Positions 1 to 17,396 of a stretch of 37,517 nucleotides of DNA are shown here, piece by piece. Below the pieces are notes generated by a model. The model had not been told where the DNA came from. It saw nothing but the letters and a program-made list of their open reading frames with translations, and searched no databases. Position 1 is the first letter of the stretch. Each line of letters opens with the position of its first letter. Position numbers and translations under genes: made by a program. The DNA is from a virus: positions 1 through 37,517 of the IMG/VR virus record IMGVR_UViG_3300027754_000222; one strand, given 5' to 3'.

Positions 1-261
1 GAAGATGAATTTGGCGGATATACAATTGAGATTGACCAATTTGACTTTGGTCATGTTGCACATAAAAATACTAAACTTTATATTTGTGGAATAGCTAAAG
101 ATAATTTACCACCAATGCCACCTAAAAATCTATCATCTACTGACAGGTCAATATGTGGTAATGTAAAAGGAACAAAACGCTGTACTCAATATCAACGAGA
201 ATATACACCAGATGATTTAATTAACTGGATGACAAAGGTATGTAATGAATTACAGAAATAA
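1..261 (+). CDS. PPC-motif phage protein, C-terminal fragment (5' end outside window)
   Basis: The reading frame is open from base 1 to TAA at 259-261 and gives 86 residues. They match the last 86 residues of the full-length gene at 36327-36875 almost perfectly, so this is the truncated 3' end of a second version of that gene. Between the two copies I count about 19 nucleotide mismatches in the first 240 bases, most of them synonymous, so both copies look under selection for protein function. The fragment lacks the N-terminal part holding the HPPCRAWG motif. Its 3' end overlaps the next gene by 17 bases. The family is a common phage protein of unproven function. Base 1 corresponds exactly to the last G of the poly-G run in the other copy. 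Confidence 0.85.
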   Translation, partial: EDEFGGYTIEIDQFDFGHVAHKNTKLYICGIAKDNLPPMPPKNLSSTDRSICGNVKGTKRCTQYQREYTPDDLINWMTKVCNELQK

Positions 262-535
262 AAAACTATTAGAGGTTGTTAGGGAAGCTCCATGTATGAT
301 GTGTTCAATGGAAGATGGAACAGTTTGTGCAGCTCATAGTAATCAATTAAGAGATGGCAAGGGAACTGGCATAAAAGCTCAAGATTTCCGCATTGCAGCG
401 TTATGTCACCAATGCCACCATATGATAGATAATGACAAATCATTAGATAAACATGATAGAATAAGTGCATGGGAAGAAGCACATAGAAAAACTATAGGTT
501 GGCTATTTACTAACGGACATTTAGGAGTAAAGTAA
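245..535 (+). CDS. YbcO/DUF1364-like zinc-binding nuclease
   Basis: This 96-residue protein has paired zinc ligands: C17-x2-C20, an AHSNQLRD stretch with H31, and C54-x2-C57 followed by H58 and D62. That layout is the one seen in the DUF1364 family (E. coli YbcO type), HNH-like nucleases found among nin-region genes of lambdoid phages. It probably acts on branched or single-stranded DNA in phage recombination, but the substrate is not established here. It overlaps the previous gene by 17 bases, and its TAA shares a base with the next ATG (TAATG). A diverged second copy at 36862-37152 shares 59 of 96 residues by hand count, with all zinc ligands conserved. Confidence 0.8.
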   Translation: MNYRNKKLLEVVREAPCMMCSMEDGTVCAAHSNQLRDGKGTGIKAQDFRIAALCHQCHHMIDNDKSLDKHDRISAWEEAHRKTIGWLFTNGHLGVK

Positions 536-744
536 TGGGGAAAGGTTCTGGCAGAAGACCATTGTTAATTTCTGAACAAGAAGCACAAGATAACTGGGAC
601 AAGATTTTTAAGAAGAAAAAGAATAGTGATGATGTATCACCGCACACTTATGAATACGAACTAAATAAGTCTATCGGTGATGTAGAGAAAAGATTTATAG
701 ACGGAACATCTAAACCTAACGAAAGTCAATTTAATGGCAACTAG
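535..744 (+). CDS. small charged hypothetical protein
   Basis: This 69-residue hydrophilic protein has a basic central segment (DNWDKIFKKKK) followed by DDVSPHTYEYELNKS. I see no membrane segment, cysteine pair or named domain. It sits between two nuclease-like genes, with TAATG coupling to the gene before and an 11-base overlap with the gene after, so it belongs to the same transcript. A 56-residue homologue at 37152-37322 keeps the DNWDKIF and SDDVSPH blocks but has a shorter C-terminus, which suggests the tail is dispensable. The function is unknown. Confidence 0.7.
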   Translation: MGKGSGRRPLLISEQEAQDNWDKIFKKKKNSDDVSPHTYEYELNKSIGDVEKRFIDGTSKPNESQFNGN

Positions 745-1051
745 CCCAACGCAGTTAAGTCTTAAAAAATTACGAGAAGAAGGATACACATGTTGGATTA
801 CAGAGCATTGGAATAGTTATGCTAGGATACGTCAAGATTTATTTGGTTTTATAGATATACTAGCTTTAAAGGGAAAAGAAACATTAGCTGTGCAAACAAC
901 TACAGCAACAAATATGTCAGCTAGAGTAAAGAAGATAGGTGACCATGAAAACGTAGGTCCAGTTCGTGAAGCTGGTTGGGCTATTCATGTACATGGTTGG
1001 CATCAAGACGATAAGAAAAAATGGCATTGCAAAGTGAAAGATGTATCATGA
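734..1051 (+). CDS. PD-(D/E)XK-like (Holliday-resolvase/VRR-NUC-like) protein, degenerate motif
   Basis: This 105-residue protein has a core reading DLFGFIDILALKG and then VQTTT. The spacing resembles the beta-hairpin of PD-(D/E)XK nucleases: D41 would be the motif-II aspartate, but the usual E-x-K is Q54-T-T. The N-terminal LKKLREEGY helix and the later GHVHGW-like strand also suit a small resolvase fold. The changed residues could mean an inactive or altered active site. Its position among nin-type genes supports a DNA-processing role. The partial second copy at 37312-37517 has the same D and QTT residues (58 of 68 identical by hand count), so the change is conserved and not a sequencing error. 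Confidence 0.6.
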   Translation: MATSPTQLSLKKLREEGYTCWITEHWNSYARIRQDLFGFIDILALKGKETLAVQTTTATNMSARVKKIGDHENVGPVREAGWAIHVHGWHQDDKKKWHCKVKDVS

Positions 1052-1398
1052 GTAACAAAGATAAAATAATAGCTTATCTTACAGAGCCTAAAACTATAAA
1101 AGCAATAGCTGAACATGTAGACGCTAACTATCACACTATTAAAAACTTGCTTGTAGCTATGAAGATGGAAGGTGATGTACATTCATTTAAAGATAACGAT
1201 AATAGACTTATGCACTATTACATTCCACAGCCACATCCATTACAAGCTATATTTGGACACACAGCAAACTTTACAGATGACCAGATAAAGAGCATTACAA
1301 TACATAATGCAGATGACTCTAAACATAACCTTCAGCATAATACTACACGAGAAACATTTGGGGAAAGCATAACCTATACGTTAGGTAAATATGATTAG
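1048..1398 (+). CDS. winged-helix DNA-binding protein
   Basis: I place the start at ATG 1048, which overlaps the preceding TGA (ATGA); an upstream start at 1021 would run inside the previous gene. The 116-residue product begins with a short winged-helix-like block of about 55 residues (KTIKAIAEHVDANYHTIKNL, then GDVHSF and a HYYI strand). The rest is polar, without a recognisable domain. It lies directly before the Q-like antiterminator and overlaps it by 8 bases, so it may help control early-to-late switching, but a replication role is just as possible. Only the DNA-binding fold is supported. Confidence 0.65.
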   Translation: MSNKDKIIAYLTEPKTIKAIAEHVDANYHTIKNLLVAMKMEGDVHSFKDNDNRLMHYYIPQPHPLQAIFGHTANFTDDQIKSITIHNADDSKHNLQHNTTRETFGESITYTLGKYD

Positions 1399-1720
1399 TA
1401 TGGAACGCTTACTATCTATTCTGGATGATTGGGCTTTGTGGATGAAGTCGGATAATCACAAGCTAGGTTATCCATCTAAAAGCATAGGCATGTCATCTGG
1501 TGGAGAGTCTACAAGTGATGCGTTTGAAGAAATGTGTTCTGCTCAGGATATGTCTAATGTAAGGACATTGCACGCTATCATACATAGTTTAGAAAAGCCT
1601 CAACAAGATGCTATCTATACTAAATACTTAGGTGCTAAACCAAAAATAGGCTATTATTGGGAGTTAGAACTAGCTTATGACAATTTACTGACAATAGCAG
1701 GTAGAAGGATAAACGCATAA
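1391..1720 (+). CDS. Q-like late antitermination protein (phage_antitermQ type)
   Basis: This 109-residue protein resembles the small Q antiterminators of lambdoid phages (PF06530-like). It has an N-terminal ILDDWALWM helix, a GYPSKSIG segment, a central LHAIIHSLEKPQQDAIYTKYLG block like the RNA-polymerase/DNA-contacting helices of that family, and a final helix ending in AGRRINA. The call rests mainly on context. The gene is last in the early rightward operon and is followed within 6 bases by a strong promoter and then an intrinsic terminator, as Q is by PR' and tR'. In that system Q loads on RNA polymerase paused near PR' and lets it pass tR' into the late genes. A profile search would settle the family. 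Confidence 0.65.
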   Translation: MISMERLLSILDDWALWMKSDNHKLGYPSKSIGMSSGGESTSDAFEEMCSAQDMSNVRTLHAIIHSLEKPQQDAIYTKYLGAKPKIGYYWELELAYDNLLTIAGRRINA

Positions 1721-1725
1721 TGTTG

Positions 1726-1755
1726 TTGAACAGAAATAGCAAAGTGTGCTATAAT
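1726..1755 (+). promoter_or_regulatory. late promoter (PR'-like), sigma70 type
   Basis: The -35 box is TTGAAC (1726-1731) and the -10 box is a perfect TATAAT (1750-1755), 18 bases apart, so transcription should begin near 1762. It is among the best consensus promoters in the window and faces the late genes. Just downstream are two small inverted repeats: GGACA/TGTCC (1766-1770, 1776-1780), and CGTTA-A-TAACG (1780-1790). These could form a pause signal or a Q-utilisation element in the leader. Confidence 0.8.
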
Positions 1756-1799
1756 ACTACTTGTTGGACAACTCCTGTCCGTTAATAACGTAATCCCAC

Positions 1800-1842
1800 A
1801 AAAGCCTGACTGCACTCTCTCCGTGGTTGGGCTTTTTCTTTT
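1800..1842 (+). terminator. intrinsic terminator in late leader (tR'-like)
   Basis: The left arm AAAAGCCTGAC (1800-1810) pairs with GTTGGGCTTTT (1826-1836), 11 pairs including two G-U wobbles. A second short stem, CAC/GTG (1813-1815, 1823-1825), closes a 7-base loop. The T-rich tract runs 1833-1842. It lies about 40-80 bases after the predicted late transcription start, so without antitermination most transcripts would end as a short leader RNA. Confidence 0.8.
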
Positions 1843-1844
1843 AT

Positions 1845-2012
1845 ATGAAACTATCTATTTGCGAACAATGTGGTGAACCTTTTGACTTCACCGAGTATTC
1901 TTTGTGCAACGATTGTAGACATGACCATAGATTTATTAAATTAAGGAAAGATAATGAAGTCAACACCCAAGACAAAAGCAGGCAAGATGGCAAAGATGAA
2001 AAAAGTATTTAA
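1845..2012 (+). CDS. small zinc-ribbon protein
   Basis: Starting at ATG 1845, just after the leader terminator, this 55-residue protein carries C-x2-C (EQCGEPF) and, about 15 residues later, C-x2-C (LCNDCRHDH), a typical single zinc ribbon. Its C-terminus is highly polar. A longer reading from TTG 1827 would lie inside the terminator stem, so I reject it. It is the first gene of the late transcript and overlaps the next one by 59 bases in another frame. The function is unknown; nucleic-acid binding is the usual role of such modules. Confidence 0.55.
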   Translation: MKLSICEQCGEPFDFTEYSLCNDCRHDHRFIKLRKDNEVNTQDKSRQDGKDEKSI

Positions 2013-2130
2013 AGAATTTGGTGCAGGAACTTTAAACGTAGGTAAGTCATCAAAAAAAGTGTCAAACCCTAAACAAGCCACCGCAATAGCTTTATCAGTT
2101 AGCGGTATGTCTAAAAAGAAAAGGAAATAA
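1954..2130 (+). CDS. small Lys-rich protein, DUF6496-like
   Basis: The ORF starts at ATG 1954 behind an AAGGAAAG ribosome-binding site and encodes 58 residues, 17 of them Lys or Arg and one acidic. The pattern KVFKEFGAGTLNVG, then a Lys-rich linker, then NPKQATAIALS matches the small DUF6496-type proteins seen near structural genes of many phages, as I remember them. It is strongly basic, so nucleic-acid binding is plausible, but no function is established. It overlaps the zinc-ribbon gene in another frame and is 2 bases from the next gene. Confidence 0.65.
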   Translation: MKSTPKTKAGKMAKMKKVFKEFGAGTLNVGKSSKKVSNPKQATAIALSVSGMSKKKRK

Positions 2131-2132
2131 TT

Positions 2133-2264
2133 ATGCCAATGGTCGGAAAAATGAAGTTTGCTTACACAGAAAAAGGTAAGAAAGAAGCTAAATCATACGC
2201 AAAGAAAACAGGTAAAGCTATGACAGCTAAGCCTATGAAAAAGGCAGCTAAACGTGGCAAGTAA
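2133..2264 (+). CDS. very small Lys-rich phage protein
   Basis: This 43-residue ORF begins 2 bases after the previous stop, at ATG 2133. About a third of its residues are Lys or Arg. It opens MPMVGKMKFAYTEKG and ends in a Lys/Ala-rich tail. Similar openings (MPMVG-K-F-YTEKG) recur in small proteins next to packaging genes of aquatic phages, from memory. The next gene starts inside its 3' end in another frame. Role unknown; a DNA-condensing or minor virion protein is conceivable. Confidence 0.6.
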   Translation: MPMVGKMKFAYTEKGKKEAKSYAKKTGKAMTAKPMKKAAKRGK

Positions 2265-2409
2265 ACCAGGCTTGTACAGTAATATTGCAAATAAACGTGC
2301 AAGAATCAAGGCTGGCTCAGGTGAGAAGATGCGCAAGGTAGGTTCTAAAGGTGCACCTACTGCTATGGCATTTAAACAATCAGCAAAGACAGCTAAGAAA
2401 AAGAAATGA
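2254..2409 (+). CDS. small basic phage protein with GTG start
   Basis: This 51-residue ORF starts at GTG 2254 inside the end of the previous gene and stops at TGA 2407-2409, sharing ATGA with the next gene. The sequence (SKPGLYSNIANKRARIKAGS, then MRKVGSKGAPTAMAF) belongs to a small family often found before terminase genes in aquatic podoviruses and siphoviruses, from memory. It is very basic and has no cysteine or membrane segment. The function is unknown. The GTG start is chosen because the family motif begins there and no ATG lies upstream in frame. Confidence 0.65.
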   Translation: MASKPGLYSNIANKRARIKAGSGEKMRKVGSKGAPTAMAFKQSAKTAKKKK

Positions 2410-2657
2410 TTAAGAAGGGTAAAGAAACATTTTCAGGTTATAATAAACCTAAAAGAACACCTAATCATCCTACTAAGTCACATGCAGTATTGGCTAAAGA
2501 TGGTGACCAAGAAAAACTTATACGCTTTGGACAAAAGGGCGTAAGTGGTGATAAAACAAATACAGATAGAGCAAAATCTTTTAAAGCAAGACACGCTAAA
2601 AACATTGCTAAAGGAAAAATGAGTGCTGCTTTTTGGGCTAACAAAGTAAAGTGGTAA
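2406..2657 (+). CDS. conserved small basic phage protein
   Basis: This 83-residue protein contains KSHAVLAKDGDQEKLIRFGQ, then GVSGDKTNTDRAKSFKARH, and ends SAAFWANKVKW. The block is well conserved in small proteins of many marine and freshwater phages, from memory, always near packaging or head genes. The core is basic and globular-looking, with a charged N-terminus. It overlaps the previous gene by 4 bases and the following GTG-started glycosyltransferase by 7, so all are co-translated. The function is unknown. Confidence 0.75.
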   Translation: MIKKGKETFSGYNKPKRTPNHPTKSHAVLAKDGDQEKLIRFGQKGVSGDKTNTDRAKSFKARHAKNIAKGKMSAAFWANKVKW

Positions 2658-3358
2658 AACTAGATATATATGTAGGATATGATGGCAAGGTAGAACCAAT
2701 TGCTTATCATAACTTTTGCCAGTCAGTTATAGAGAAGTCATCTATACCGGTTAGCTTTACACCATTAGCACTAAACACTTTAAAAGACTACAAAGAAACA
2801 CATACAGACGGTAGTAACGCATTTATCTACTCACGCTTTCTAGTGCCATATCTAAATAACTTTAAAGGTATCGCACTATTTGTAGATGGCGACATGATAT
2901 GCCGCACAGATATTGCAGAGATACTAGCTAACTTTGATACAGACGAAGCAATCAAGGTAGTTAAGCATCATTACCAAACAAAGCACCCTATTAAATATTT
3001 AGGTGCAAAGAACGAAGACTATCCTAAAAAGAATTGGTCAAGCGTTATGTTATGGAACTGTGGACATTGGCTCAATAAACAATTAACACCTAAGTTTGTG
3101 CAAGAACAAACAGGTAAATACCTACACAGGTTTGAATGGCTTAAGTATCCTGAAGAACAAGTAGGCAAGCTAGACGAAACATGGAACTGGCTAGAAACAG
3201 AATACGAATACAACCCAGATGCTAAGTTAGTCCATCACACCCTCGGCACACCTTGCTTTAAGGATTATCAGAATTCTGATTACGCAAAAGAGTGGTGGCA
3301 GACTTACCATAGAATGATATACCCACTTAAGGGTAATAACAAAGAATCAGAACTATAA
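2651..3358 (+). CDS. GT8-like glycosyltransferase
   Basis: This 235-residue protein begins (GTG start) with KLDIYVGYDGKVEPIAYHNF, the nucleotide-sugar-binding opening of GT-A fold enzymes. At residues 79-81 it has the metal-binding DGD (DxD) inside LFVDGDMICRTD. The later NWSSVMLWNC segment and PEEQVGKLDETWNWL, with a final HHTLGTPC, are typical of this phage GT family. It would transfer a sugar from a nucleotide donor; the acceptor (host glycan, virion protein or DNA base) cannot be read from the sequence. It sits just before the terminase genes, away from the second glycosyltransferase at 9569. Confidence 0.75.
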   Translation: MVKLDIYVGYDGKVEPIAYHNFCQSVIEKSSIPVSFTPLALNTLKDYKETHTDGSNAFIYSRFLVPYLNNFKGIALFVDGDMICRTDIAEILANFDTDEAIKVVKHHYQTKHPIKYLGAKNEDYPKKNWSSVMLWNCGHWLNKQLTPKFVQEQTGKYLHRFEWLKYPEEQVGKLDETWNWLETEYEYNPDAKLVHHTLGTPCFKDYQNSDYAKEWWQTYHRMIYPLKGNNKESEL

Positions 3359-3392
3359 CAGAGGGCAACCAACCTAAGGGAGTTGCAATATC

Positions 3393-3650
3393 ATGGCAGA
3401 ACGATTAAGAAAACGACATCAAGACGAAGTAAGAACAAAAATACAAACAAGTCAGCTAGTAAATGTCTTGCAAAATCATGCACTTGGTGTAGATGATGAA
3501 AAAGAAATTACACCTACACGCATGAAGGCAATAGAGATACTATTACGTAAGTCATTACCTGACCTATCATCTACAGAGATAAGTGGTGTAGATGGTGGAG
3601 ATATACCCATTGGTGTAGGAATTAGCTTTGTCAAACCAAACGATAGCTGA
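3393..3650 (+). CDS. terminase small subunit-like protein
   Basis: This 85-residue protein lies directly before TerL and overlaps it by 23 bases. It is mostly helical by composition: a basic N-terminus (AERLRKRHQDEVRTK), then a segment like the oligomerisation part of small terminases (LQNHALGVDDEKEITPTRMKAIEILLRKSLPDL). This pattern, TRMKA-IELLL-K-LPDL, is common in small-terminase-like proteins of aquatic phages. It would recognise the packaging site and hand the DNA to TerL. The upstream gap contains a GCAAC/GTTGC hairpin (3365-3369, 3382-3386) around the AAGGGAG ribosome-binding site, which could modulate translation. Confidence 0.7.
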   Translation: MAERLRKRHQDEVRTKIQTSQLVNVLQNHALGVDDEKEITPTRMKAIEILLRKSLPDLSSTEISGVDGGDIPIGVGISFVKPNDS

Positions 3651-4884
3651 GTTTCCTGATAAGTTACAGTTTCTATTTGAGCCACACCGTTACAAAGTAG
3701 CATACGGTGGTAGAGGTTCAGGTAAGTCATGGTCTATGGCTAGAGCATTGCTTATAAAAGCAGCGAATGAGCCAACACGTGTCTTATGTGCCAGAGAAAT
3801 ACAACGTAGTATTAAACAATCAGTACATACATTACTTAATGACCAGATACAGTCTTTAGGTCTAGGAGCTTTCTATGAAGTCCTAGAGTCAGAGATTAGA
3901 GGTCTTAACGGTAGTACATTTAGTTTTACCGGTCTTGCTACAAACACAGTAGAGTCTATAAAGTCTTTTGAAGGTTGTGATGTTGTATGGGTAGAAGAAG
4001 CTCAGACTGTTAGTAAGAAGTCATGGGACATATTAATACCTACAATACGTAAACCTAATTCAGAGATATGGGTATCATTCAACCCTAACATAGACACAGA
4101 CGACACATACACTAGATTTGTGGTAGAACCACCAGAGAACGCTAAGGTTGTTAAAGTAAACTATACTGACAATCCTTGGTTTCCTGAAGTGCTAGAAATT
4201 GAACGCCTACATAGTGAGAAGACTAACCCTGACTATGCAAACATCTGGGAAGGTGATTGTAAGGCTGCTGTAGATGGTGCTATATACTCTAACGAGATAC
4301 GAGAAGCACAAGAAGGTAACCGTATAACAACTGTACCTTATGACCCTATGATGAAGGTTCATGTAGTTATGGACTTAGGATGGAACGACAGCATGTCAGT
4401 TATCCTATGCCAAAAGGGTATATCAGATTTACGCATCATTGGTTATATAGAAGATGACCACAGAACATTAGATAGCTATTCTGCACAACTAAAGAACTTA
4501 TCCTATAACTGGGGTACAATGTTCTTACCACATGACGGACAGTCTAAAGACTTTAAGCATGGTATATCAGCAGAAGATATTATGAAGAAATTAGGATGGG
4601 ATATACGTATCGTGCCTAAAGCAGACATAGAGTCTGGTATTAAGTTAGCACGTATGAACTTCCACCGTATATACTTTGACAAGTCAGCACAAAGACTTGT
4701 TGAATGTTTAAAGAATTATCGCAGAAGTATAAACTCTGCAACCAACGAACCTGGTGCGCCATTGCATGATGAGTTTTCACATGGAGCAGACGCATTCAGA
4801 TACTTATGTACCTCTATAGAAGCTATGAAGAACGAATCATGGTCTAGAGAGAAGATACAATATAATACTAGAGGGATTGTTTAA
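3628..4884 (+). CDS. terL: terminase large subunit
   Basis: This 418-residue ATPase-nuclease packages DNA into proheads. Walker A is GGRGSGKS (residues 27-34), Walker B with the catalytic glutamate is VVWVEEA (119-125), and the C-terminal RNase-H-like nuclease begins VHVVMDLGWND with D249. A late HDEFSHGADAFRYL motif supplies another metal-binding acidic residue. Length and motifs fit the PBSX/Terminase_3 family. The start is TTG at 3628, because no ATG occurs before the Walker A region and the upstream sequence (IAEFPDKLQFLFEPHRYKVA) is typical of the family. TAATG coupling joins it to the portal gene. Confidence 0.95.
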   Translation: MSNQTIAEFPDKLQFLFEPHRYKVAYGGRGSGKSWSMARALLIKAANEPTRVLCAREIQRSIKQSVHTLLNDQIQSLGLGAFYEVLESEIRGLNGSTFSFTGLATNTVESIKSFEGCDVVWVEEAQTVSKKSWDILIPTIRKPNSEIWVSFNPNIDTDDTYTRFVVEPPENAKVVKVNYTDNPWFPEVLEIERLHSEKTNPDYANIWEGDCKAAVDGAIYSNEIREAQEGNRITTVPYDPMMKVHVVMDLGWNDSMSVILCQKGISDLRIIGYIEDDHRTLDSYSAQLKNLSYNWGTMFLPHDGQSKDFKHGISAEDIMKKLGWDIRIVPKADIESGIKLARMNFHRIYFDKSAQRLVECLKNYRRSINSATNEPGAPLHDEFSHGADAFRYLCTSIEAMKNESWSREKIQYNTRGIV

Positions 4885-6917
4885 TGAAGTTACAAGACAT
4901 GGAAATCATAGCTCAGGTAGAACTTGAAGAGAGTATGGCTTATGGTGTCAATGACTCTTCACTATCTAATGATAGAGCAGATGCAATTGACTATTACCTA
5001 GGTCAACCTTTTGGTAACGAAGAGGAAGGTCGTTCACAAGTAATTAGCTATGACGTACAAGATACGATTGAGGCTGCATTACCACAACTCTTAAAAGTCT
5101 TTGTAGCTGGTGATAAGGTTGTTCAGTTTGACCCTAAAGGTCCTGAAGACCAAGACGCAGCAGAGCAAGAAACAGATTACATTAACCATGTAGTCATGGA
5201 AAAGAACGAAGGGTTCAAGACATTCTACGTATGGTTTAAAGACGCACTACTTTCTAAGAATGGCTATGTAAAAGTCTATTCAGAAGATGAAGAAGAAGTA
5301 GAAGAATATGATTACAAAGGTTTAACTGATGCACAACTACAGATGTTGGCTTCAGATGAGAATACAGAAGTATTAGAACATACTGGCTATCCTGACCCAA
5401 CTGTCAATATGGATGTTATCTATCAGCAAGCAGCTATGAATGGTGTAGACCCTGCTACTATTATGCAACCTATGTTACATGATGTTAAGCTCAAGGTTAC
5501 AGAGAAAAAGACAGAGATTAAGATTGAAAACGTAGCACCTGAAAGCATTATGGTGTCTGTAGAAGTTACTGGTCCTAATCTAAAAGATGCACGCTTTGTT
5601 CAACATAGAGAAGTGATGCAGTTAGCTGACATTGCAAAAGCATTTAATAAGCCACTAGAATACATCAAGTCTATTATGTCAGACCTTCGTGATACGTTTG
5701 AAGAAGAGTCTAATGCACGTGATATTTATGATGAAGAATACGATAGAGCTATTGAGTCAGGCGAAGCATTAGTTAAAGACACTTATATTAAAATAGATGG
5801 TGAACGTCATAGAGTAGTTATCTTAGGCAACACAGTTCTTTATAAAGAAAAGACTGAGGTTGTACCTTTCGCATGTATCACTCCAATGATAATGCCACAT
5901 AGACATATCGGTCGTTCTTATGCTGACTTGACTATGGACATTCAGTTAATTAAGTCTACCCTTATTCGTGGTCAGTTAGATAACATGTATCTAGCTAACA
6001 ATGGTCGTTATGCTATCTCTGATAGAGTAAACCTAGATGATATGCTTACATCACGTCCAGGTGGTATTGTTCGTGTAGAAGGTGACCCAGGCTCAGGCAT
6101 TATGCCTTTATCACATCCACCACTACCAGCATCATCATTCGGTATGGTTGAATACATGGACTCTATGAAAGAAAAGAGAACAGGTGTTACAGCTTACAAT
6201 CAAGGCTTAGATGCTAACAGTCTAAACAAGACAGCTACCGGTGTAGCACAGATTATGAATGCGTCTCAACAACGTATTGAGTTAGTAGCTAGAACATTTG
6301 CAGAGACAGGTGTAAAAGAACTATTTAAACTTGTTCATAGACTTGTAAGAACTACACTTACCAAACCTGACATTGTTCGTATGCGTAACAAGTGGGTAGA
6401 AGTAGACCCTAGAGAATGGGAAGACCGTAATGATTTATCTATCTCTGTAGGATTAGGCGCAGGTAATAAAGACCAACAGTTAGCACATCTCATGTCTATC
6501 TTGAATATGCAAAAAGAAGCTATCCAAATAGGTCTTACATCACCAGAGAAGATATACAACGCACTCGCTAAACTTACACAGAACGCAGGCTTTAAGAACC
6601 CTGAAGAGTTCTGGACTAACCCATCTCAGAACCCACAAGGTGAACAACCAAAACAACCTGACCCTCAAGAAACTCTTATTCAAGGTCAGTTAGCTATTGA
6701 GCAACAAAAAGCTCAGTCTGATATGCAATTGGCACAACAAAAAGCACAGGCTCAGTTAGCACAAGAACAAGAACGTAGTAAGAATGACATTATTATTGAA
6801 CGTGAAAAGATAATGTCACAAGCAGAACTAGAAAGATTTAAAGCACAACTTAAAGCAGAGACAGATTTAGCTATTGCTCAAATCAAAGCTCAGTCAGGAA
6901 TGATGTATGGCGGATAA
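4884..6917 (+). CDS. portal protein (P22-like podovirus type)
   Basis: This 677-residue protein forms the dodecameric vertex through which DNA enters and leaves. It starts with a DRADAIDYYLGQPFGNEEEGRSQ segment and DVQDTIEAALPQLLKVFV, standard in P22-type portals, and includes RSYADLTMDIQLIKSTLIRG and GVTAYNQGLDANSLNKTATG, the hallmark stem/clip region of this family. The C-terminal 100 residues are rich in Gln, Lys and Ala, a coiled coil like the barrel of P22 portal. Its length is close to P22 gp1. It follows terL with a one-base overlap and overlaps the next small gene by 11 bases. Confidence 0.92.
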   Translation: MKLQDMEIIAQVELEESMAYGVNDSSLSNDRADAIDYYLGQPFGNEEEGRSQVISYDVQDTIEAALPQLLKVFVAGDKVVQFDPKGPEDQDAAEQETDYINHVVMEKNEGFKTFYVWFKDALLSKNGYVKVYSEDEEEVEEYDYKGLTDAQLQMLASDENTEVLEHTGYPDPTVNMDVIYQQAAMNGVDPATIMQPMLHDVKLKVTEKKTEIKIENVAPESIMVSVEVTGPNLKDARFVQHREVMQLADIAKAFNKPLEYIKSIMSDLRDTFEEESNARDIYDEEYDRAIESGEALVKDTYIKIDGERHRVVILGNTVLYKEKTEVVPFACITPMIMPHRHIGRSYADLTMDIQLIKSTLIRGQLDNMYLANNGRYAISDRVNLDDMLTSRPGGIVRVEGDPGSGIMPLSHPPLPASSFGMVEYMDSMKEKRTGVTAYNQGLDANSLNKTATGVAQIMNASQQRIELVARTFAETGVKELFKLVHRLVRTTLTKPDIVRMRNKWVEVDPREWEDRNDLSISVGLGAGNKDQQLAHLMSILNMQKEAIQIGLTSPEKIYNALAKLTQNAGFKNPEEFWTNPSQNPQGEQPKQPDPQETLIQGQLAIEQQKAQSDMQLAQQKAQAQLAQEQERSKNDIIIEREKIMSQAELERFKAQLKAETDLAIAQIKAQSGMMYGG

Positions 6918-7179
6918 GTCACTAGAAGAAGTTAAGCGTGGTGAACAAGCATCAAAGATATTAGATAACCCTATCTATAAAGAAGCTATGGATAAGGTTC
7001 GTGAAAGTCTTATTGCTAGTATGGCTAACAGTCCATTAGGTGATGAGAAGACACACAACAGATTAGTAATAGCATTACAGTTATTAAACCAAATAAACAA
7101 GCAACTTACTGACGTTATGCAAACAGGTAAGTTAGCAGCTATCCAAACGGACAGACCTAAGTTTAAGATATTTGGGTAA
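6907..7179 (+). CDS. small helical protein between portal and scaffold
   Basis: This 90-residue, probably all-helical protein has GEQASKILDNPIYKEAMDKVRESL in the first half and HNRLVIALQLLNQINKQLTDVMQTGKLA in the second. The block resembles small proteins found at this position, between portal and scaffold, in podovirus-like phages. Its role is unknown; a head-assembly or packaging accessory is likely from context. It overlaps the portal gene by 11 bases. After its stop there is a 62-base gap that holds a hairpin before the scaffold gene. Confidence 0.65.
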   Translation: MADKSLEEVKRGEQASKILDNPIYKEAMDKVRESLIASMANSPLGDEKTHNRLVIALQLLNQINKQLTDVMQTGKLAAIQTDRPKFKIFG

Positions 7180-7220
7180 GGACAAGCCCACTTAATACTC
7201 TAACGAGTATTTCTATTGTC
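7180..7220 (+). promoter_or_regulatory. hairpin leader upstream of scaffold gene
   Basis: A perfect 7-bp stem, AATACTC (7194-7200) and GAGTATT (7205-7211), closes a TAAC tetraloop. An outer pairing GACAA (7181-7185) with TTGTC (7216-7220) extends it. No long T tract follows, so it is not a clear terminator. It may stabilise the capsid mRNA or mark an RNase processing site ahead of the abundant scaffold and capsid genes. Confidence 0.45.
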
Positions 7221-7241
7221 TAATTTCAAGGAAATAAAACT

Positions 7242-8225
7242 ATGAGTGACCAAGTCGCAGAACAGTCACCACAAAGTCGGTTAGAGACTATGCTTGGTGA
7301 TAGTGTTGAATCAGATGTTAAACCACCTGAACTTCAAGACGAAGAAGAACAAACACCACTAGAGGCTGAAGCTGAAGATACTGAAGAAGTAGAATCAGAA
7401 GAAGCAACAGAAGAATCAGATGACGAAGTTGAGGAAGAAGAACAGTCGCAAGATGAAGTTCCTGCTATCCTTAAACTTAAAGTCAATGGTGAAGATGTTG
7501 AAAAACCACTAGACGAAGTAGTAGCATTAGCTCAACAAGGCTTAGACTACACGCAAAAGACACAACAAGTAGCAGAACAACGTAAAGAGCTAGAAACTTA
7601 TGCCCAGCAAATACAATTGCAGGAGCAAGCCTTTCACGAACAAATGCAACTTAACAATGTGTTGATTGAAGATGTAGCAAAAATCACATCATTAGACCAA
7701 CAATTAAACCAATATGCTAACGTGAATTGGAATCAATTGTCTGATAATGACTTTGTGGAAGCGCAAAAACTTTTCTTTACATACAACCAACTACAGCAAG
7801 AACGTAGCCAACTCGTTTCACAGTTTGAAGCCAAAAAGCAACAAGTCGTTTATAAGCAAACGCAATTGATGTCTGAGAAGATAGCAAAGGGAAAAGAAAT
7901 TCTAGCAAAAGAGATACCAAATTGGAGTCCTGAGACTAACCAAGCATTGTTATCTACTGGCAAGGATTATGGATTTTCTGATGCCGAACTCAACTCAATT
8001 GTTGACCCTCGTCACGTAAAGGTATTGCATGACGCTATGCAATGGCGCAAACTTCAACAGAATTCTACTGTAAAGAAAAAAGTATCAAGTGCTAAACCAG
8101 TGGTGAAACCTGGTTCTAAAGATACCAAAACGGAAGCTAACTCTAACCACCGTAACCTACGTGAGCAATTACGTAAGACAGGTAAATCAGACGCAGCTAC
8201 AAAACTTATAGAAAACATGCTTTAA
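7242..8225 (+). CDS. scaffolding protein
   Basis: This 327-residue protein directly precedes the major capsid gene. Residues about 10-75 are extremely acidic (runs of Glu and Asp). Residues about 95-215 form a Gln/Glu-rich coiled coil (QKTQQVAEQRKELETYAQQ). The C-terminus is basic and helical (NHRNLREQLRKTGK), as expected for the part that binds the coat protein. Scaffolds guide coat assembly into a prohead and leave or are cleaved before packaging. Family identity rests on position, composition and length, because scaffolds diverge fast. Its ribosome-binding site is AAGGAAAT. Confidence 0.82.
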   Translation: MSDQVAEQSPQSRLETMLGDSVESDVKPPELQDEEEQTPLEAEAEDTEEVESEEATEESDDEVEEEEQSQDEVPAILKLKVNGEDVEKPLDEVVALAQQGLDYTQKTQQVAEQRKELETYAQQIQLQEQAFHEQMQLNNVLIEDVAKITSLDQQLNQYANVNWNQLSDNDFVEAQKLFFTYNQLQQERSQLVSQFEAKKQQVVYKQTQLMSEKIAKGKEILAKEIPNWSPETNQALLSTGKDYGFSDAELNSIVDPRHVKVLHDAMQWRKLQQNSTVKKKVSSAKPVVKPGSKDTKTEANSNHRNLREQLRKTGKSDAATKLIENML

Positions 8226-8245
8226 TTTAAAAGGAAACCATAATC

Positions 8246-9199
8246 ATGGCAGTATCAGCAACCAATAGTTATACCGGTAAAGGTATAGCGGAGTCTTTTG
8301 AAGATATCATTTTTGATATTTCTCCAGAAGACACACCATTGTTATCAATGGCAAAAAGAATGTCAGCAGGGCAAACTTATCATCAATGGCAAACAGACGC
8401 ATTAGCAGCAGCAGCGACTAACAGAGCAGTTGAAGGTGATGACGCTTCATACGCAACATTAGCATCAACAACAGTATTAGGTAACTATACTCAAATCTCA
8501 AGCAAGACAGTTCAAATTTCAAACACTTATGACGTAGTTAAAAAATATGGTCGTAAGTCTGAAGTTGCTTACCAACTTATGAAAGCCGGTAAGGAAATGA
8601 AACGTGACATGGAGTATGCTATCGTACGTAACCAAGCATCATCAGCAGGTGGCGCAGCAACAGCTCGTTCATCAGCAGGTATTGAGTCTTGGATTGTAAA
8701 CAGAGTACTAGCTACAGGTTCTACATCAGGTTCTACTCCTGGCTTTTCAGGTGGTCTTGTTGCAGCTCCTACAGACGGTACAGCAGTAACATTCATTGAA
8801 GCAGACTTAAAGTCAGCTTTACAATTAGCTTGGACAGATGGTGGCGAGCCATCAACAATCCTTATGTCAGCAACTAACAAATCACGTTTCTCTGGTTTTA
8901 GTGGTATTGCTACTAAGTTCAACAATGTTCAAGGTACAACACAAGCTACTATTACTGGTGCAGCAGACGTTTACGTTTCTGACTTCGGTAACCACACTGT
9001 GAAACTTGACCGTTTCATGCGTGATGCAGCAGTTCTTTGTATTGACCCAGGCTATGTTGGTTTAGCTTCACTCAGACCTTTAAGCAAAGAAGAACTTGCT
9101 AAAACTGGTGACTCAACTAAATATCTATTAACAGCAGAATATGCTTTAGTAGTACAGAACCCTGACGCACATGCAAAAGTGCAAAACACAGGTGCTTAG
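8246..9199 (+). CDS. major capsid protein (SU10/DUF5309-like)
   Basis: This 317-residue coat protein has an HK97 fold by family. Its opening, TGKGIAESFEDIIFDISPEDTPLLSMA, then TYHQWQTDALAAAATNRAVEGDDA, and QISSKTVQISNTYDVVKKYGRKSE are the characteristic sequence of the DUF5309/SU10-type major capsid proteins. A later DVYVSDFGNHTVKLDRFMR segment matches the same family. It has an AAAAGGAAACC ribosome-binding site, 20 bases after the scaffold gene. An intrinsic terminator at 9217-9249 follows, so coat mRNA levels can exceed those of the downstream tail genes. Confidence 0.93.
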   Translation: MAVSATNSYTGKGIAESFEDIIFDISPEDTPLLSMAKRMSAGQTYHQWQTDALAAAATNRAVEGDDASYATLASTTVLGNYTQISSKTVQISNTYDVVKKYGRKSEVAYQLMKAGKEMKRDMEYAIVRNQASSAGGAATARSSAGIESWIVNRVLATGSTSGSTPGFSGGLVAAPTDGTAVTFIEADLKSALQLAWTDGGEPSTILMSATNKSRFSGFSGIATKFNNVQGTTQATITGAADVYVSDFGNHTVKLDRFMRDAAVLCIDPGYVGLASLRPLSKEELAKTGDSTKYLLTAEYALVVQNPDAHAKVQNTGA

Positions 9200-9216
9200 T
9201 AACTAGATGTGATATG

Positions 9217-9249
9217 ATAGGGGGAGTTAATTCTCCCTCTATTATTTTT
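9217..9249 (+). terminator. intrinsic terminator after major capsid gene
   Basis: The stem is ATAGGGGGAG (9217-9226) with CTCCCTCTAT (9233-9242), 10 pairs including one G-U, closing a TTAATT loop. A T-rich tract (TTATTTTT) ends at 9249. It lies 18 bases after the coat stop codon and would reduce transcription into the tail genes unless antiterminated. Confidence 0.8.
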
Positions 9250-9252
9250 ACT

Positions 9253-9576
9253 ATGCCAATATTATTTGACCACAATAGCGTAACAGGTGTAAGTCAGTAC
9301 TTTGACTATGACCCTGCTAAAGATACATACTACCTAACTAGCACACAAGATATTAGTGGCATGTTAGACAATATTAAAAAGTCCAGAGATAACCCTGAAA
9401 TTTGGAACAAAGGTGTTAAACAAGAATGGGCGCACTTTGCTAGTATTCCACCGGTAGTGGAAATGCAGTTAAAGCAAAAGGGTATAGACATGTATAACCC
9501 TAACCAAACAAAAGAACTCATAAAAGAAATAAACGAAAACTATCCATATCTAAAGTTGACTACCAAACGTGGATAA
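9253..9576 (+). CDS. conserved hypothetical head-region protein
   Basis: I place the start at ATG 9253 (MPILFDHN). An in-frame ATG at 9214 would put the terminator inside the coding region and add an unlikely leader peptide. The 107-residue protein contains YFDYDPAKDTYYLTSTQDI and IWNKGVKQEWAHFASIPPVV, and ends with helices (TKELIKEINENYPYLKLT). Similar proteins occur next to capsid genes in aquatic phages, from memory; the function is unknown, and a head-completion or decoration role is a guess. No good ribosome-binding site precedes ATG 9253, which is odd for a gene in this operon. Confidence 0.65.
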   Translation: MPILFDHNSVTGVSQYFDYDPAKDTYYLTSTQDISGMLDNIKKSRDNPEIWNKGVKQEWAHFASIPPVVEMQLKQKGIDMYNPNQTKELIKEINENYPYLKLTTKRG

Positions 9577-10891
9577 ACACGAATTAAAGAACGTACAGTT
9601 AGCAATACATGACCTCATACAAAAAGAAGAGTATGACACAGCATTACCTATAATTAATGAAGTGTTAATGGTTTACCCTAATGATGCAGCTACACTAAAC
9701 TTCTTAGGTTATATCTGGTTAATGGGTGATAAGCCTGCATTTGCATATCAGTTCTTCCGTAGAGCATTACAAGAATCACCAAGCAATAAAGCGTTATGGA
9801 CATCTCTAGGTCGTGCATGCCATGAAATGGATATGTTTGATGATGCTATTAAATACTTTTTAAAGTCAGCAGAATTAGACCCTAGCTATGCACTAGCTTA
9901 TGCTAACGCTTCAGCTTCACTTGTTCAGATGTCAAGATGGGATGATGCAGAGAAGTCAGCAAAGATGGCTTTAGAATGTGACCCTAACGAATTAAACGCA
10001 CAATTAAACCTAGCTCATAGTTACCTTGCTAAAGGTGAATGGGAAAAGGGTTGGTCAGAATGGAACAAGTCACTAGGTGGTAAGTTTCGTAAAGAGTTAT
10101 CTTATGGTGACGAAGTAAGATGGGATGGTTCACCGGATAAGACATTAGTTATATATGGCGAACAAGGTTTAGGTGATGAGATATTCTACGCTTCATGTAT
10201 ACCAGACGCTATTGCTATTAGTAAGCAAGTCTATATAGACTGTGATGAAAGATTAGAAACATTATTTAAACGTAGTTTCCCTAAAGCAATTGTTCATGGG
10301 ACACGCAAAGCAAAAGAAGTGGAGTGGGCAAATGACATTACAATTGATGCAAGATGTCCTATTGGTGGGTTACCTCAGTTTTTCAGACCAACGAGCAAAT
10401 CTTTTCCTGGTACTCCTTTTCTAGTACCTGATACAGATAAGGTTGAAATGTGGAAAGCCATGTTTAAACCATGGGGTAAGACTGTAATAGGTATCACTAC
10501 TAAAGGCGGTACATTTAGAACTAACTCTAAAGGTCGTATTCTTACAAAAGATGACTTACAGCCACTATTAAGACGCAAAGATATACAGTTAGTTAGCTTA
10601 GATTATAGCGTAGAAAGCAAAATTGAAGGCATTAAGTACCTAGAATTAGCATCTGACGCAAAAGATTATGACGATACAGCAGCTCTTATAGCAGCTTGTG
10701 ATATGGTTTTAGGGGTTAATACTACAGCTTTACATTGTAGTGCTGCTATGGGCGTTAAAACATGGTGCTTAGTACCTAAATATCACCAATGGAGATATGC
10801 TCAAGTAAGTATGCCTTGGTATAGACACATGAGACTCATTTATCAAGACGATAGAACATGGAAAGAAGTCATTGAACAACTTAATCTCTAA
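9569..10891 (+). CDS. TPR protein fused to GT9-like glycosyltransferase domain
   Basis: This 440-residue protein has two parts. Residues about 1-165 are tetratricopeptide repeats (e.g. AATLNFLGYIWLMGDKPAFA, ALWTSLGRACHEMDMFDDAI, ALAYANASASLVQMSRWDDA). Residues about 190-440 resemble the GT-B fold of heptosyltransferase/GT9-type enzymes: VIYGEQGLGDEIFYASCIPD at the start, and a GVNTTALHCSAAMGVKTWCL sugar-nucleotide site near the end. Such TPR-GT fusions are common in bacterial glycosylation. In a phage it may modify virion proteins or host surface sugars; the acceptor is unknown. The start is GTG 9569, overlapping the previous gene by 8 bases. It overlaps the methyltransferase by 20. Confidence 0.78.
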   Translation: MDKHELKNVQLAIHDLIQKEEYDTALPIINEVLMVYPNDAATLNFLGYIWLMGDKPAFAYQFFRRALQESPSNKALWTSLGRACHEMDMFDDAIKYFLKSAELDPSYALAYANASASLVQMSRWDDAEKSAKMALECDPNELNAQLNLAHSYLAKGEWEKGWSEWNKSLGGKFRKELSYGDEVRWDGSPDKTLVIYGEQGLGDEIFYASCIPDAIAISKQVYIDCDERLETLFKRSFPKAIVHGTRKAKEVEWANDITIDARCPIGGLPQFFRPTSKSFPGTPFLVPDTDKVEMWKAMFKPWGKTVIGITTKGGTFRTNSKGRILTKDDLQPLLRRKDIQLVSLDYSVESKIEGIKYLELASDAKDYDDTAALIAACDMVLGVNTTALHCSAAMGVKTWCLVPKYHQWRYAQVSMPWYRHMRLIYQDDRTWKEVIEQLNL

Positions 10892-11384
10892 CGAATATAG
10901 AGAAATGCAGTCTAAACTGCATGAGAACCCTGAATATGGGATAGCAAGTACGTTCTTTGCACCTATTGTTGATGATGTTATACAAAGTTTTGGTATTACA
11001 AGTTTATTAGACTACGGTGCAGGAAAATGTAGACTAAGGGACAGCATAAAGTCAGAAGTAATCTACACTCCGTATGAACCTAGTAATCCATTATGGAGTC
11101 AAACACCAGAACCAAACGAATTTGTAACATGTATAGACGTTCTTGAACACATAGAGCCTGAATTACTAGATAACGTACTAGATGATTTAAAAAGAGTAGT
11201 AGATAAATACGGACTATTTACAATACATACTGGTCCGGCAATGAAAATCTTACCAGACGGTAGAAACGCACATCTTATACAACAACCTTTAGAGTGGTGG
11301 AATAAACATCTCAGCACTCGCTTTACTATTACCAAACAAGTAAAGATAGATAATGGTTGTATCGTATTAGTTAAAAAACAATAA
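10872..11384 (+). CDS. class I SAM-dependent methyltransferase
   Basis: This 170-residue protein has motif I as SLLDYGAGKCRLRD (residues 45-58), with the glycine-rich SAM loop. Motif IV is FVTCIDVLEHIEPE, and DDLKRVVDKYGLFTIHTGPA is the usual helix-strand pair after it. The length suits the compact phage or glycan methyltransferases. No catalytic PPY or PPC motif is present, so it is more likely to act on a sugar or small molecule than on DNA bases. The start is TTG 10872, overlapping the glycosyltransferase. ATG 10905 is an alternative, but it would drop a segment that looks conserved. Coupling to the TPR-glycosyltransferase suggests they act on one glycan. Confidence 0.78.
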   Translation: MNNLISNEYREMQSKLHENPEYGIASTFFAPIVDDVIQSFGITSLLDYGAGKCRLRDSIKSEVIYTPYEPSNPLWSQTPEPNEFVTCIDVLEHIEPELLDNVLDDLKRVVDKYGLFTIHTGPAMKILPDGRNAHLIQQPLEWWNKHLSTRFTITKQVKIDNGCIVLVKKQ

Positions 11385-11393
11385 GGATTACGA

Positions 11394-12002
11394 ATGGCAT
11401 TTACAAACTATACTACCTTTGTATCAACGGTAGAAAGCTATCTTGCACGTACAGACTTAACAACTGTTATCCCTGACTTTGTTCAGATGGCACAGTTAAG
11501 AATGAGTCGTGACTTAAGAACAGAAGCTATGTTAAAGGTTGCAACTACTACAGCCACAGATAATAAGGTAGCATTTCCTACTGACTTCTTAGAGTTAAGA
11601 GAGATGCACTTTGAGGGTAATCCACCTATTATCTTAGAGTTCCAATCACCTGACTTGTTCTTCCGTAATGGTCAAACATCATTATCAGGTCGTTCACATT
11701 ACTTTACAATGTTAGGTACAGAGTTTCAGTTTGCACCTAGCCAAGATGCAACTTACACTATTCAAATTTTATACTATGCTCAACCTACATTTATCTCTAC
11801 TACAACATCTAGTAACTTGTATTTAGCATACTACCCAGACGCTTTACTTTACGCAACTCTAGCAGAAGCAGAACCGTATCTTATGAATGACCCAAGAGTA
11901 GCAACATGGTCAGCTTTATATGATAGAGCCATTGCTAATATCAAGAAAAGCGATTTGGGACAAACATACGCATACACAACATTAAACGTAACACCAAGAT
12001 AA
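11394..12002 (+). CDS. head-tail adaptor protein
   Basis: This 202-residue protein starts MAFTNYTTFVSTVESYLAR, followed by VIPDFVQMAQLRMSRDLRTE. That is the helical opening of the phage adaptor family that binds under the portal in podoviruses and SU10-like phages. The middle has beta strands (KVAFPTDFLELREMHFEG), and the C-terminus has LYLAYYPDALLYATLAEAEPYL, typical of adaptors. It would bridge the portal to the tail hub. Its position before the tail genes supports the call. It starts 9 bases after the methyltransferase, with AAGGAT as ribosome-binding site. Confidence 0.85.
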   Translation: MAFTNYTTFVSTVESYLARTDLTTVIPDFVQMAQLRMSRDLRTEAMLKVATTTATDNKVAFPTDFLELREMHFEGNPPIILEFQSPDLFFRNGQTSLSGRSHYFTMLGTEFQFAPSQDATYTIQILYYAQPTFISTTTSSNLYLAYYPDALLYATLAEAEPYLMNDPRVATWSALYDRAIANIKKSDLGQTYAYTTLNVTPR

Positions 12003-12014
12003 AGGAAAAACATC

Positions 12015-12401
12015 ATGGCAGAAATGAGTAATTATTTAGAGAACGCTTTAATTAACGTTACTCTACGCAATACAGCTTACACAACACCTACAACAGTATA
12101 TGTAGCATTATATACAACAGACCCTACAGACGCAGACACAGGCACAGAAGTAACTGGCGGTTCTTACGCTAGACAATCAGCTACATTTGGTGCACCTTCT
12201 AACGGTGCTTCAGTTACAACTGCTGACATTACATTTCCAACTTGCACAGCAAACTGGGGAACTGTAACACATATTGGTATTAGAGATGCTTCTACAGCAG
12301 GTAATCTTTTATACCATACACCATTAGACACATCTAAAACTGTTACTACTGGTGACATCTTTAAGATTTCTACAGGTAATCTTTCAGTTACATTAGCTTA
12401 A
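12015..12401 (+). CDS. small virion protein (tail/decoration, beta-rich)
   Basis: This 128-residue beta-rich protein has the widespread opening SNYLENALINVTLRNTAYTTP and TTVYVALYTTDPTDADTGTE, then GGSYARQSATF. Its centre is ITFPTCTANWGTVTHIGIRDA. This family is found in many tailed phages beside fibre genes and is usually listed as a tail or minor virion protein; the exact place in the virion is not established. The ribosome-binding site is AAAGGAAAAA. It sits between the adaptor and the large adhesin and is not membrane-associated. Confidence 0.7.
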   Translation: MAEMSNYLENALINVTLRNTAYTTPTTVYVALYTTDPTDADTGTEVTGGSYARQSATFGAPSNGASVTTADITFPTCTANWGTVTHIGIRDASTAGNLLYHTPLDTSKTVTTGDIFKISTGNLSVTLA

Positions 12402-12404
12402 TTT

Positions 12405-12626
12405 ATGACTACTTGTGTTGTTTATGACAAGGCTACTGATAAACCTACAAACATTATCATAGCTGAAATTACAGACCAAGCTCCTGAAGGGTATTATTTT
12501 GGTGAATTACCTACTAATACTATTTGGAATGGTTCTGAATTAATTGCACAAGAAATTAGCACGCCTACAGAAGAAACAACAGAAGAATCTACAGAAGAAT
12601 TTGTACAGGAAGTAGACAATGGCTAA
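12405..12626 (+). CDS. small acidic-tail protein before the adhesin
   Basis: This 73-residue protein has a compact beta-like N-terminal part (CVVYDKATDKPTNIIIAEIT, then PEGYYFGELPTNTIWNG) and a Thr/Glu repeat tail (TEETTEESTEEF). It overlaps the large fibre gene by 8 bases. Short proteins with this YDKAT/NIIIAE opening are often placed next to fibre genes in aquatic phages. A role as a fibre partner or chaperone is an inference from position. The Glu-rich tail gives it a very low pI. Confidence 0.6.
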   Translation: MTTCVVYDKATDKPTNIIIAEITDQAPEGYYFGELPTNTIWNGSELIAQEISTPTEETTEESTEEFVQEVDNG

Positions 12627-15600
12627 TAGATATTGGGTAGGTGGAACAGCCTCTTGGGATGCTACTGTTGGCACTAAATGGGCATTAACATCTGGTGGCA
12701 CTGGTGGTCAAGCAGTTCCTACCGCTGCTGACGATGTATTCTTTGATGGTGGTTCTGGTGCAGTTACTTGTACTGTTTCAGGCAGTAGAGTAGCAAAAAG
12801 TATTACTTGCACAGGATTTACTGGAACACTTGCTGGAGCATCAACTCCTGCATTGGCTATATCAGGTAGCTTAACATTAGTATCAGGTATGACTTTAACT
12901 TATGCTGGAACTACTACATTTAATGCTACTGGAACAATTACAAGTGGTGGAAAAACATTAAGTGCTGTCACCATTAATGGTGTTGGAATTACTGTTACGA
13001 TAGGTGATTCATTTACATCATCAGGAGCATTAACATTAACTAATGGCACATTAAATGTAAATAATCAAACCTTAACTACTTCAACATTTTCAAGTACTAA
13101 TGCCAACACGAGAGCTATACAGTTTGGCACTGGCAACATTACAATAACAGGTACTGGCACAGCATGGACAACTGCAAACGCTAACAACCTTACTTATACA
13201 GGCACTCCAACAGTTAATTTAACTGGCTCTACCACCATGACAATAACTGCTGGTACTAGTAATGGAGCAGATACTAACGCATTTAACTTTAATAGGTCAG
13301 CAGGTACAGATTTAACAGTAACTACAGGTTCTTTTATACGCAATCTTGATTTTACAAGTTTTACAGGCACTTGGTCGCCATCAACAGCTACATGCTCATT
13401 CTTTGGAAATTTAACTTTAGTCTCTGGCATGACCTTTACTGCAGGCACAGGCATATGGACCTTCGCTGGAACTTCTGGTGTTCAAACAATTACCTCTGCT
13501 GGTAAAACAATAGGTCCAATAACAATTAATAACACTGGAACATCAGTTCAATTAGTAGGTAACACCACAGGTGCAGCAATAGTATTTACAAATGGCACGC
13601 TTGATATAAATTCTGTTACAACAAGCTTTACTACACTTACATGTTCCGCAGGTGCTACAAGTACTATTTCTGGTGGAACTTTAAACTGCACAACATTTAC
13701 AAATACTTCAAGCTCAACAACAACAACAATACAATCTGGTACTTTAAATCTTTCAAGTACCGTAACCCATACAAATGGCACAGTGACACTAGGAACATCT
13801 GGCGTTCTTACAGCTGCAAGCGCATACACATTTACTGCTGGTACTCTAGCGTTAGGGAGCAATACCTTAACTGCACTAACATTTTCATCATCTAGCTCAA
13901 GCGCACGTTCTATTAGTTTTGGTACAGGTCAAATAACTTTAACTGGAAACGCAGCAACTATTTGGGATAGCGCAACTGCCACTAACTTTACCTACTCAGG
14001 TACAGCTAAAATTGTTTCAAACTACGCAGGCTCAACTGGAACAAGAACATTTTCTTTTGGCGCAATAACAGTCCCATTTACTGTAGGCTCAGGGTCAGGC
14101 AATCAGTTTTCATTTGGTACAGCTGGAACAGATACAATAGTATTTACAAACAGCTCACGGGTAGCATCACTTGACTTTACAGGGTTTACAGGAACATGGG
14201 CACAAAGTACTAATGCAATGTCTATTCGCACAGATAACTTAACTTTGGCATCTGGTATGACATGTACAGCAAGCACAGGGGTTATATCATTTACTGCAAC
14301 TTCTGGCACACAAACAATTACATCTGCTGGTAAGACTATAAATCCAATTACAATAAATGGAACAGGTGGCACTACATCTTTAGCAGACACAGCAAGTATA
14401 AATGGAATAATTACAGTTACGTTAGGTACTTTTGCAGCTAACAATCAAAATCTATCAGCTACATCTGTTTCAATTGCAAATTCAGCAAATGCTATTGTCA
14501 GTATGGGTTCTGGCACATGGACTTTATCTGGTAGTGGAACAGTATGGGCACCACCTGCAAGTTCTGTAATAAATGCTGATACATCTACAATAGCTTTTTC
14601 AGATACATCTACAACTGCAAAAACATTTGCTGGTGGTGGTAAGACTTATTATAATTTATCTATAAGTCCAGCTACAGGTATTGCTGATTACATTATTACT
14701 GGTGCAAATACTTTTAACCAAATATCAAGTTCTAAAACTGTTGCTTCTTCTATTACGCTACCAGCAGCAACAACTACAACAGTAACAACTTGGGCAGCAG
14801 GTGGTTCTTCTGGCAACTTATTAACATTAAAATCTAGCACTTATGGCACTACAAATACAACTGCAACATTAGCAGTTACAAATACATTTACAACAAACTT
14901 TACCAATGTAGCTTATGTAGGTTTATCAGCACCTAATATAGGCACAATAACTAACGGAGCAACTTTTTTTACATCTGATACTGGAAACTGGACTACTCCA
15001 GCAGCAGCTAATATTTTAACATCTGGCACATCATGGACAGTACCTACTAATTGGAATAATTCTGCCAATAATATATATATATTTGGTGGAGGTGGAGGTG
15101 GTTCTGGTGCAATTTATGTAGCTACTACTAGCTTTTCAGGAGGTGGTGGTGGTGGTGGAGCAGGATATAGAACTCTTACCAATCAAACATATAGTGGCTC
15201 TGTAACTTATGCTATTGGAGCTGAAGGAGCTGGAGCTGCAGGTGCAACATCAGGCACTTCTACTGGTGGTACAGGCGGCACAACTACTTGGGATACCATA
15301 TATACAGCTACAGGTGGCGTAGGTGGCGTAACTACAACCACAACATCTACAGGTGGTATAGGTGGTACAGGAACATCATCTGGTGGTACTGGTGGTAATG
15401 GTGATGTTACTATTAGTATAACAAATACTGCTACTGCTGGTGGTGGAGGTGGAGGAGCTGCAGGAGTAAACGGTGCTGGTGGCAATGGTGGTAATGGACT
15501 TAATACCGCTAATGACAGTTTGACTGCTGGTGGCGGTGGTGGTGGTAACGGAGGAGGCACAGCAGGTGGTAATGGTGCGTCTGGTGTAGGCGGTAATGGC

Positions 15601-16650: not shown

Positions 16651-16653
16651 AAA

Positions 16654-17388: not shown

Positions 17389-17396
17389 GATATAAA

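Follow-up and report, generated by a model that had tools for sequence, protein, structure and literature searches.

A gene for a 109-residue Q-like protein, followed directly by a sigma-70 promoter and by a short leader that contains an intrinsic terminator, stands in front of the late region of a freshwater virus of bacteria; together they very probably form a late switch of the Q/PR'/tR' type, in the compact version known from phage 21. The DNA analysed, here called the window, comprises positions 1-37,517 of IMG/VR virus record IMGVR_UViG_3300027754_000222 and its features are listed in Table 1. With a switch of this type, late control by Q would be extended to aquatic phages that are common and apparently lytic; one of their relatives, Venkman, infects a methylotroph. 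It would also be operated by a Q protein that is naturally minimal and for which the known rule of loading, a Q-binding element read by a complete helix-turn-helix, does not obviously hold.

Promoter, leader and terminator

The promoter-terminator module is situated between nin-type early genes and the late genes, that is, in front of the late operon. Upstream of the 109-residue gene, in circular order, are genes for a DnaB-like helicase, a NinB-like protein and YbcO-like proteins, and downstream of it, on one strand to about 30.4 kb, are the terminase, portal, scaffold and endolysin genes. TTGAAC (1726-1731) begins five bases past the Q stop codon and is separated by 18 bp from TATAAT (1750-1755), with the TG of an extended -10 at 1747-1748; within positions 1-20000 this is the only site that scores 10 of 12 with a TG (two registers, one site). 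The leader measures about 80 nt from the estimated start at about 1763 to the end of the U-tract, and the terminator stem, AAAAGCCTGAC/GTTGGGCTTTT, has 11 pairs, which RNA folding extends to 14. For 1757-1842 the folding energy is -23.9 kcal/mol (z -3.69), and 1 of 200 shuffles is as good. A scan for promoters (at least 10 of 12, with TGn) followed within 110 nt by a hairpin of at least 11 pairs and a T-run, the criteria for which were chosen after the site had been seen, finds a single site in the window, over both strands together, and none in 60 dinucleotide shuffles. Comparison of the module DNA with named phages gave ten weak partial rows (E 0.3), which we judged to be chance.

An earlier note on this DNA had proposed a Q-like gene followed by TTGAAC-18-TATAAT and a leader of about 80 bases with a terminator stem of 11 pairs, and all of these are present. 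It had also described two tiny inverted repeats in the leader; both exist, but the second (CGTT-AAT-AACG, 1780-1790) shares base 1780 with the first, and in relatives complementary arms are preserved for the first alone. The second, present in about 12 of the 31 distinct leaders and hence not kept in most of them, was rejected as a functional dyad.

Table 1. Features of the proposed late switch and the start of the late region (positions in the window)
Feature	Position	Strand	Basis
Q-like protein gene, 109 aa	1391-1720	+	ORF, profile matches, predicted fold
PR'-like promoter TTGAAC-18-TATAAT, extended -10	1726-1755	+	only high-scoring site with TG in 1-20000; kept in relatives
Estimated transcription start	1763	+	-10 spacing only
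Small 5' leader hairpin GGACA-ACTCC-TGTCC	1766-1780	+	mixed support
Conserved AACGTAAT in leader (AAYGTRAT in group A)	1787-1794	+	leader alignment
tR'-like intrinsic terminator, 11-14 pairs and U-tract	1800-1842	+	folding, module scan
First late ORF, 55 aa, Cys-rich	1845-2012	+	begins directly behind U-tract
Terminase large subunit, marker of late region	3628-4884	+	profile searches

The Q-like protein

The protein resembles, at a distance, the antitermination family PF06530 (Phage_antitermQ), against which the earlier note had suggested checking it: the match has an E-value of 0.0071 and 16.7 bits, below the gathering cut-off of 26, and it spans profile positions 4-81 of 118, leaving positions 82-118 unmatched. 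At E <= 0.1, 12 of 26 family members match PF06530 (best 2.3e-4) and 11 of 26 match Sigma70_r4_2. None of the PHROG families matches the window protein, a sequence search of the PDB with it gave no match, and a profile comparison with relatives of phage 21 Q (21Q) aligned 67 N-terminal columns only, at 15% probability. Its named relatives are proteins of podovirus ctXG6705 (61% identity), Methylophilales phage Venkman (52%) and EBPR podovirus 1 (30%); the first, annotated 'phage antitermination protein Q', and the second, gp37, annotated 'antitermination-like protein', belong to the same protein subfamily as the window protein.

The predicted fold brings the protein closer to 21Q. The AlphaFold predictions, one for the window protein and one for a ctXG-type relative, reach a mean pLDDT of 78 and 77, respectively; the loop at about residues 22-40 has low confidence. 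Among the chains re-aligned with VIA-align 2, the four phage 21 Q structures (6p18, 6p1b, 6jnx and 6jny) lead the ranking for the window protein, in its first four rows (Z 6.1-6.8 over 85-97 residues, rmsd 3.1-5.5), and for the model of the ctXG-type relative the best row is 6p18 (Z 6.1, 90 residues, rmsd 3.3). Structures of sigma region 4 follow or interleave with the 21Q rows, with Z within 1 of theirs; a Z near 6, under 8, can also result from a commonplace arrangement of helices, and Foldseek alone returned E > 1 for the window model. With a Z of about 6 and a loop of low confidence, the match to the 21Q fold, whose hallmarks are an N-terminal helix, a nozzle loop and sigma-R4-like helices, is no more than suggestive.

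The family is also shortened. Alignment with 21Q and six of its relatives indicates that roughly 24-27 residues are missing, and the gap falls on the 21Q segment that includes H5 and the long L3 loop. According to section 5 of the 21Q study, residues S93, K94, H95 and R113, in this H5/L3 part, contact DNA (PMC6606751). The complete helix-turn-helix (H5, L3, H6) is thus not found in the alignment, which has neither H5 nor L3, and in the AlphaFold models the last two predicted helices are joined by a short link only, so that the DNA-binding motif of the window protein seems to lack its first helix and loop. QuuD of Escherichia coli K-12, which belongs to PF06530, retains the stretch. Because neither the PF06530 cut-off nor a complete DNA-binding motif is reached, we file the protein as a Q-like variant and not as a member of the PF06530 or 21Q family.

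Conservation of the module in relatives

Relatives were collected from viral contigs, of which 80 of 312 were examined for the close group (group A) and 80 of 136 for the ctXG6705 group, and a further query with the Venkman protein gave 41. The module stands 3' of Q in 75 of the 80 close relatives listed, in 79 of the 80 ctXG6705-group loci listed, where the exception is a contig end, and in 12 of 12 group-A-like loci from the Venkman query (one of them, L198, is on the same contig as L079). Four of the close-group exceptions (L030, L037, L060 and L063) end before the terminator, and in the fifth, L038, an HNH endonuclease gene is inserted in the leader. TATAAT was part of the locus search patterns, as was the beginning of the terminator in those for group A; these letters are therefore conserved by construction and it is the count of loci that carries the conservation evidence. 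One further locus (L210) was dropped as a doubtful homologue, with 32% identity over 46 residues. Just upstream of the inserted HNH gene, at L038:6411-6476, there is an int-alpA RNA (RF02996, 44.2 bits, cut-off 35.8).

At nine of the listed loci (L027, L046, L047, L053, L056, L058, L059, L074 and L080) Q and the module are separated by a methyltransferase gene, behind which the module is kept. This gene, for a DNA methyltransferase, begins within the last Q codons, and its reading frame closes, in front of the module, with identical residues, RINA; methyltransferases of several different kinds share these borders, as if this were a cassette site.

The terminator of the ctXG6705 group has a different sequence in the same place. 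A looser scan of the 41-kb ctXG6705 genome gave two sites, one of them directly 3' of Q; annotated minus-strand ORFs lie between this module and terL. In EBPR podovirus 1, TTGACA, a hairpin and a terminator can be seen by eye between the Q homologue and terS. The Venkman genome, unlike that of ctXG6705, has no such module adjoining Q, and in the ten Venkman-like loci shown another ORF follows Q directly. In the literature open without subscription we found no report of the module in Methylophilales-type phages.

The earlier note had described a phage without visible lysogeny genes, and in 19 records, many of them fragments and including that of the window, neither an integrase (PF00589) nor an S24 peptidase repressor (PF00717) was matched; the same profiles matched 14 of 14 and 10 of 14 control genomes, respectively. 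A CI repressor profile gave one match in the 19 records, below its cut-off (14.7 versus 22 bits), and the genome contigs scanned, using two patterns only, held no prophage relatives.

The proposed late switch and its alternatives

Taken as a late switch, the locus would work as follows. Host RNA polymerase would start at the promoter and, without the phage protein, would stop at the terminator, giving a short leader RNA. An early transcript through the nin-type genes would allow the 109-residue protein to be made, which would then join the polymerase near the promoter and, going by its 21Q-like predicted fold, narrow the RNA exit channel. In the narrowed channel the terminator hairpin, and later ones, could not form, and the polymerase would read the entire late region of about 28 kb. 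The lambdoid late-control architecture that the earlier note had recognised holds up, in that Q-like protein, promoter and short terminated leader are conserved as one unit where the late operon starts. Its further claim, that this architecture implies processive antitermination, goes too far: our searches identified neither a Q-binding element nor a -10-like pause element, and antitermination is therefore read from architecture and fold.

Instead of antiterminating, the protein might work at initiation from the late promoter, as a sigma-R4-like activator or a factor for polymerase appropriation, with the terminator serving as a leaky attenuator or as an insulator against early read-through. 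We consider this distinctly improbable. It would agree with the Sigma70_r4_2 matches and with the sigma region 4 structures directly below 21Q among the fold rows, but the N-terminal helix and loop of 21Q, which sigma region 4 does not have, appear to be present and aligned in the model (residues 3-109), a near-consensus promoter with an extended -10 should need no activator, and both groups retain a terminator at this place, even with a replaced sequence. That promoter and terminator serve to make a short regulatory RNA or to close the early operon, independently of the neighbouring protein, is very improbable, although a methyltransferase gene can part Q from the module and Venkman-like Q has none beside it, since no Rfam family matches within the window, terminator and leader sequence differ between the groups and therefore no single RNA is kept, and the late genes would need another promoter when the window holds no comparable module elsewhere.

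Comparison with known systems

In lambda, Q, PR' and tR' have the same order and follow the same late-control logic. The earlier note called the leader much shortened, which is correct against the lambda leader of about 190 nt but not against phage 21, whose leader of about 50 nt is even shorter than the roughly 80 nt of the window; a compact Q/PR'/tR' leader was therefore already known. In the public record of phage 21 (OL657228), the -35 element lies 6 nt after the Q stop codon, two Q-binding repeats are located in the spacer, the pause element is at +2 and the terminator ends about 50 nt from the start. The late switch proposed here resembles it in a promoter 5-6 nt past the Q stop, a short leader, a terminator before the next late-region genes and a predicted protein fold suggestive of 21Q over residues 3-109. 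It differs in a protein of 109 instead of 162 residues, from which the first motif helix and loop seem to be missing, in a spacer without the TGAGCA direct repeat and in an extra 5' hairpin. What is unusual here is thus the shortened protein, the lack of a recognisable Q-binding repeat and the 5' hairpin.

According to section 5 of PMC6606751, lambda Q has no obvious sequence homology to 21Q. PMC9371919 and PMC11150451 describe AlpA and GafZ as antiterminators that are unrelated in sequence to lambda Q, act at one promoter and pass a terminator. Their binding element in the spacer is known or proposed, whereas none was identified at the window locus.

The leader hairpin

The small 5' hairpin is conserved in part. 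Tests of it across relatives give mixed evidence that it acts as RNA, and the kinship of the sequences inflates all of them. When the arms were swapped between leaders, 0 of 2000 permutations reached the native mean in group A and 201 of 2000 in group B. Two of the five hairpin pairs in group A have changes on both sides; for the whole structure, in a pair-count alignment that ignores register shifts, 32 of 500 shuffles were as well paired and 288 of 500 had as many two-sided pairs. No shuffle (0/500) was as well paired in group B. Single-sequence folds of the hairpin gave z-scores of -1.07 for the window, -4.79 for L088, 0.19 for L033 and -0.18 for L096.

Loading of the protein

The spacers between -35 and -10 (20 in group A, 37 in group B) have no common motif that would represent a Q-binding direct repeat. 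The mean best repeat is nevertheless higher than in shuffled spacers, at 3.70 of 6 versus 3.22 in group A (5/1000) and 3.70 versus 3.12 in group B (0/500), values that are inflated because the spacers are related and AT-rich. A scan for a -10-like pause element, with approximate -10 weights, placed the best site of group A at +24, where 491 of 500 column shuffles were as good, and gave a weak CAnnnT at +18 in group B (51/500). If the element at the conserved TAACGT (+24) is real, a binding site spaced as in phage 21 would fall on the hairpin sequence.

The 78 loci encode 41 distinct Q proteins, 20 of which are common to two or more loci; seven of these 20 occur with more than one spacer and four with more than one leader start. 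One identical protein is found at six loci with four spacers and three leader stems, each stem with complementary arms, which fits recognition of shape rather than of sequence. Identical proteins beside different spacers and stems amount to a natural variant set, with which the needs of Q loading are directly testable.

Given a Q-type switch, we see about an even chance that the protein binds a relaxed spacer element as 21Q does, through weak locus-specific repeats. The repeat excess over shuffled spacers in both groups argues for it, and the sites of 21Q and AlpA and the proposed site of GafZ lie in the spacer (PMC6606751, PMC9371919, PMC11150451). Against it stand the lack of a shared motif in related, AT-rich spacers, the seven shared proteins that occur beside more than one spacer and a DNA-binding motif that has apparently lost its first helix. 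Of the two loading routes, a relaxed spacer element is likelier than recognition of the leader start. In the latter case, which we hold to be unlikely, the family would be a Q-type nozzle protein without classical DNA recognition that is loaded via the transcript start, and the role of the Q-binding element would pass to the small 5' hairpin, acting either as RNA or, downstream of the promoter, as a displaced DNA dyad.

Other features of the window

The late region opens with several small Lys-rich proteins (1954-2657), and in the ctXG6705 group, too, small ORFs of a similar kind come after the terminator. A glycosyltransferase-8-like gene (2651-3358; E 7.9e-5, below cut-off) is located 3' of the late promoter and 5' of the terminase gene. 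A hairpin of 13 pairs with a T-rich tail (9214-9245), directly after an ORF that ends at 9199, is a possible internal late terminator or processing site. The ends of the window, 1-938 and 36618-37516, match each other as diverged versions of a single region, with 74% identity over 947 columns, and a poly-G run is found at 36608; the genome may be permuted or terminally redundant, or two strains may have been joined in a chimera.
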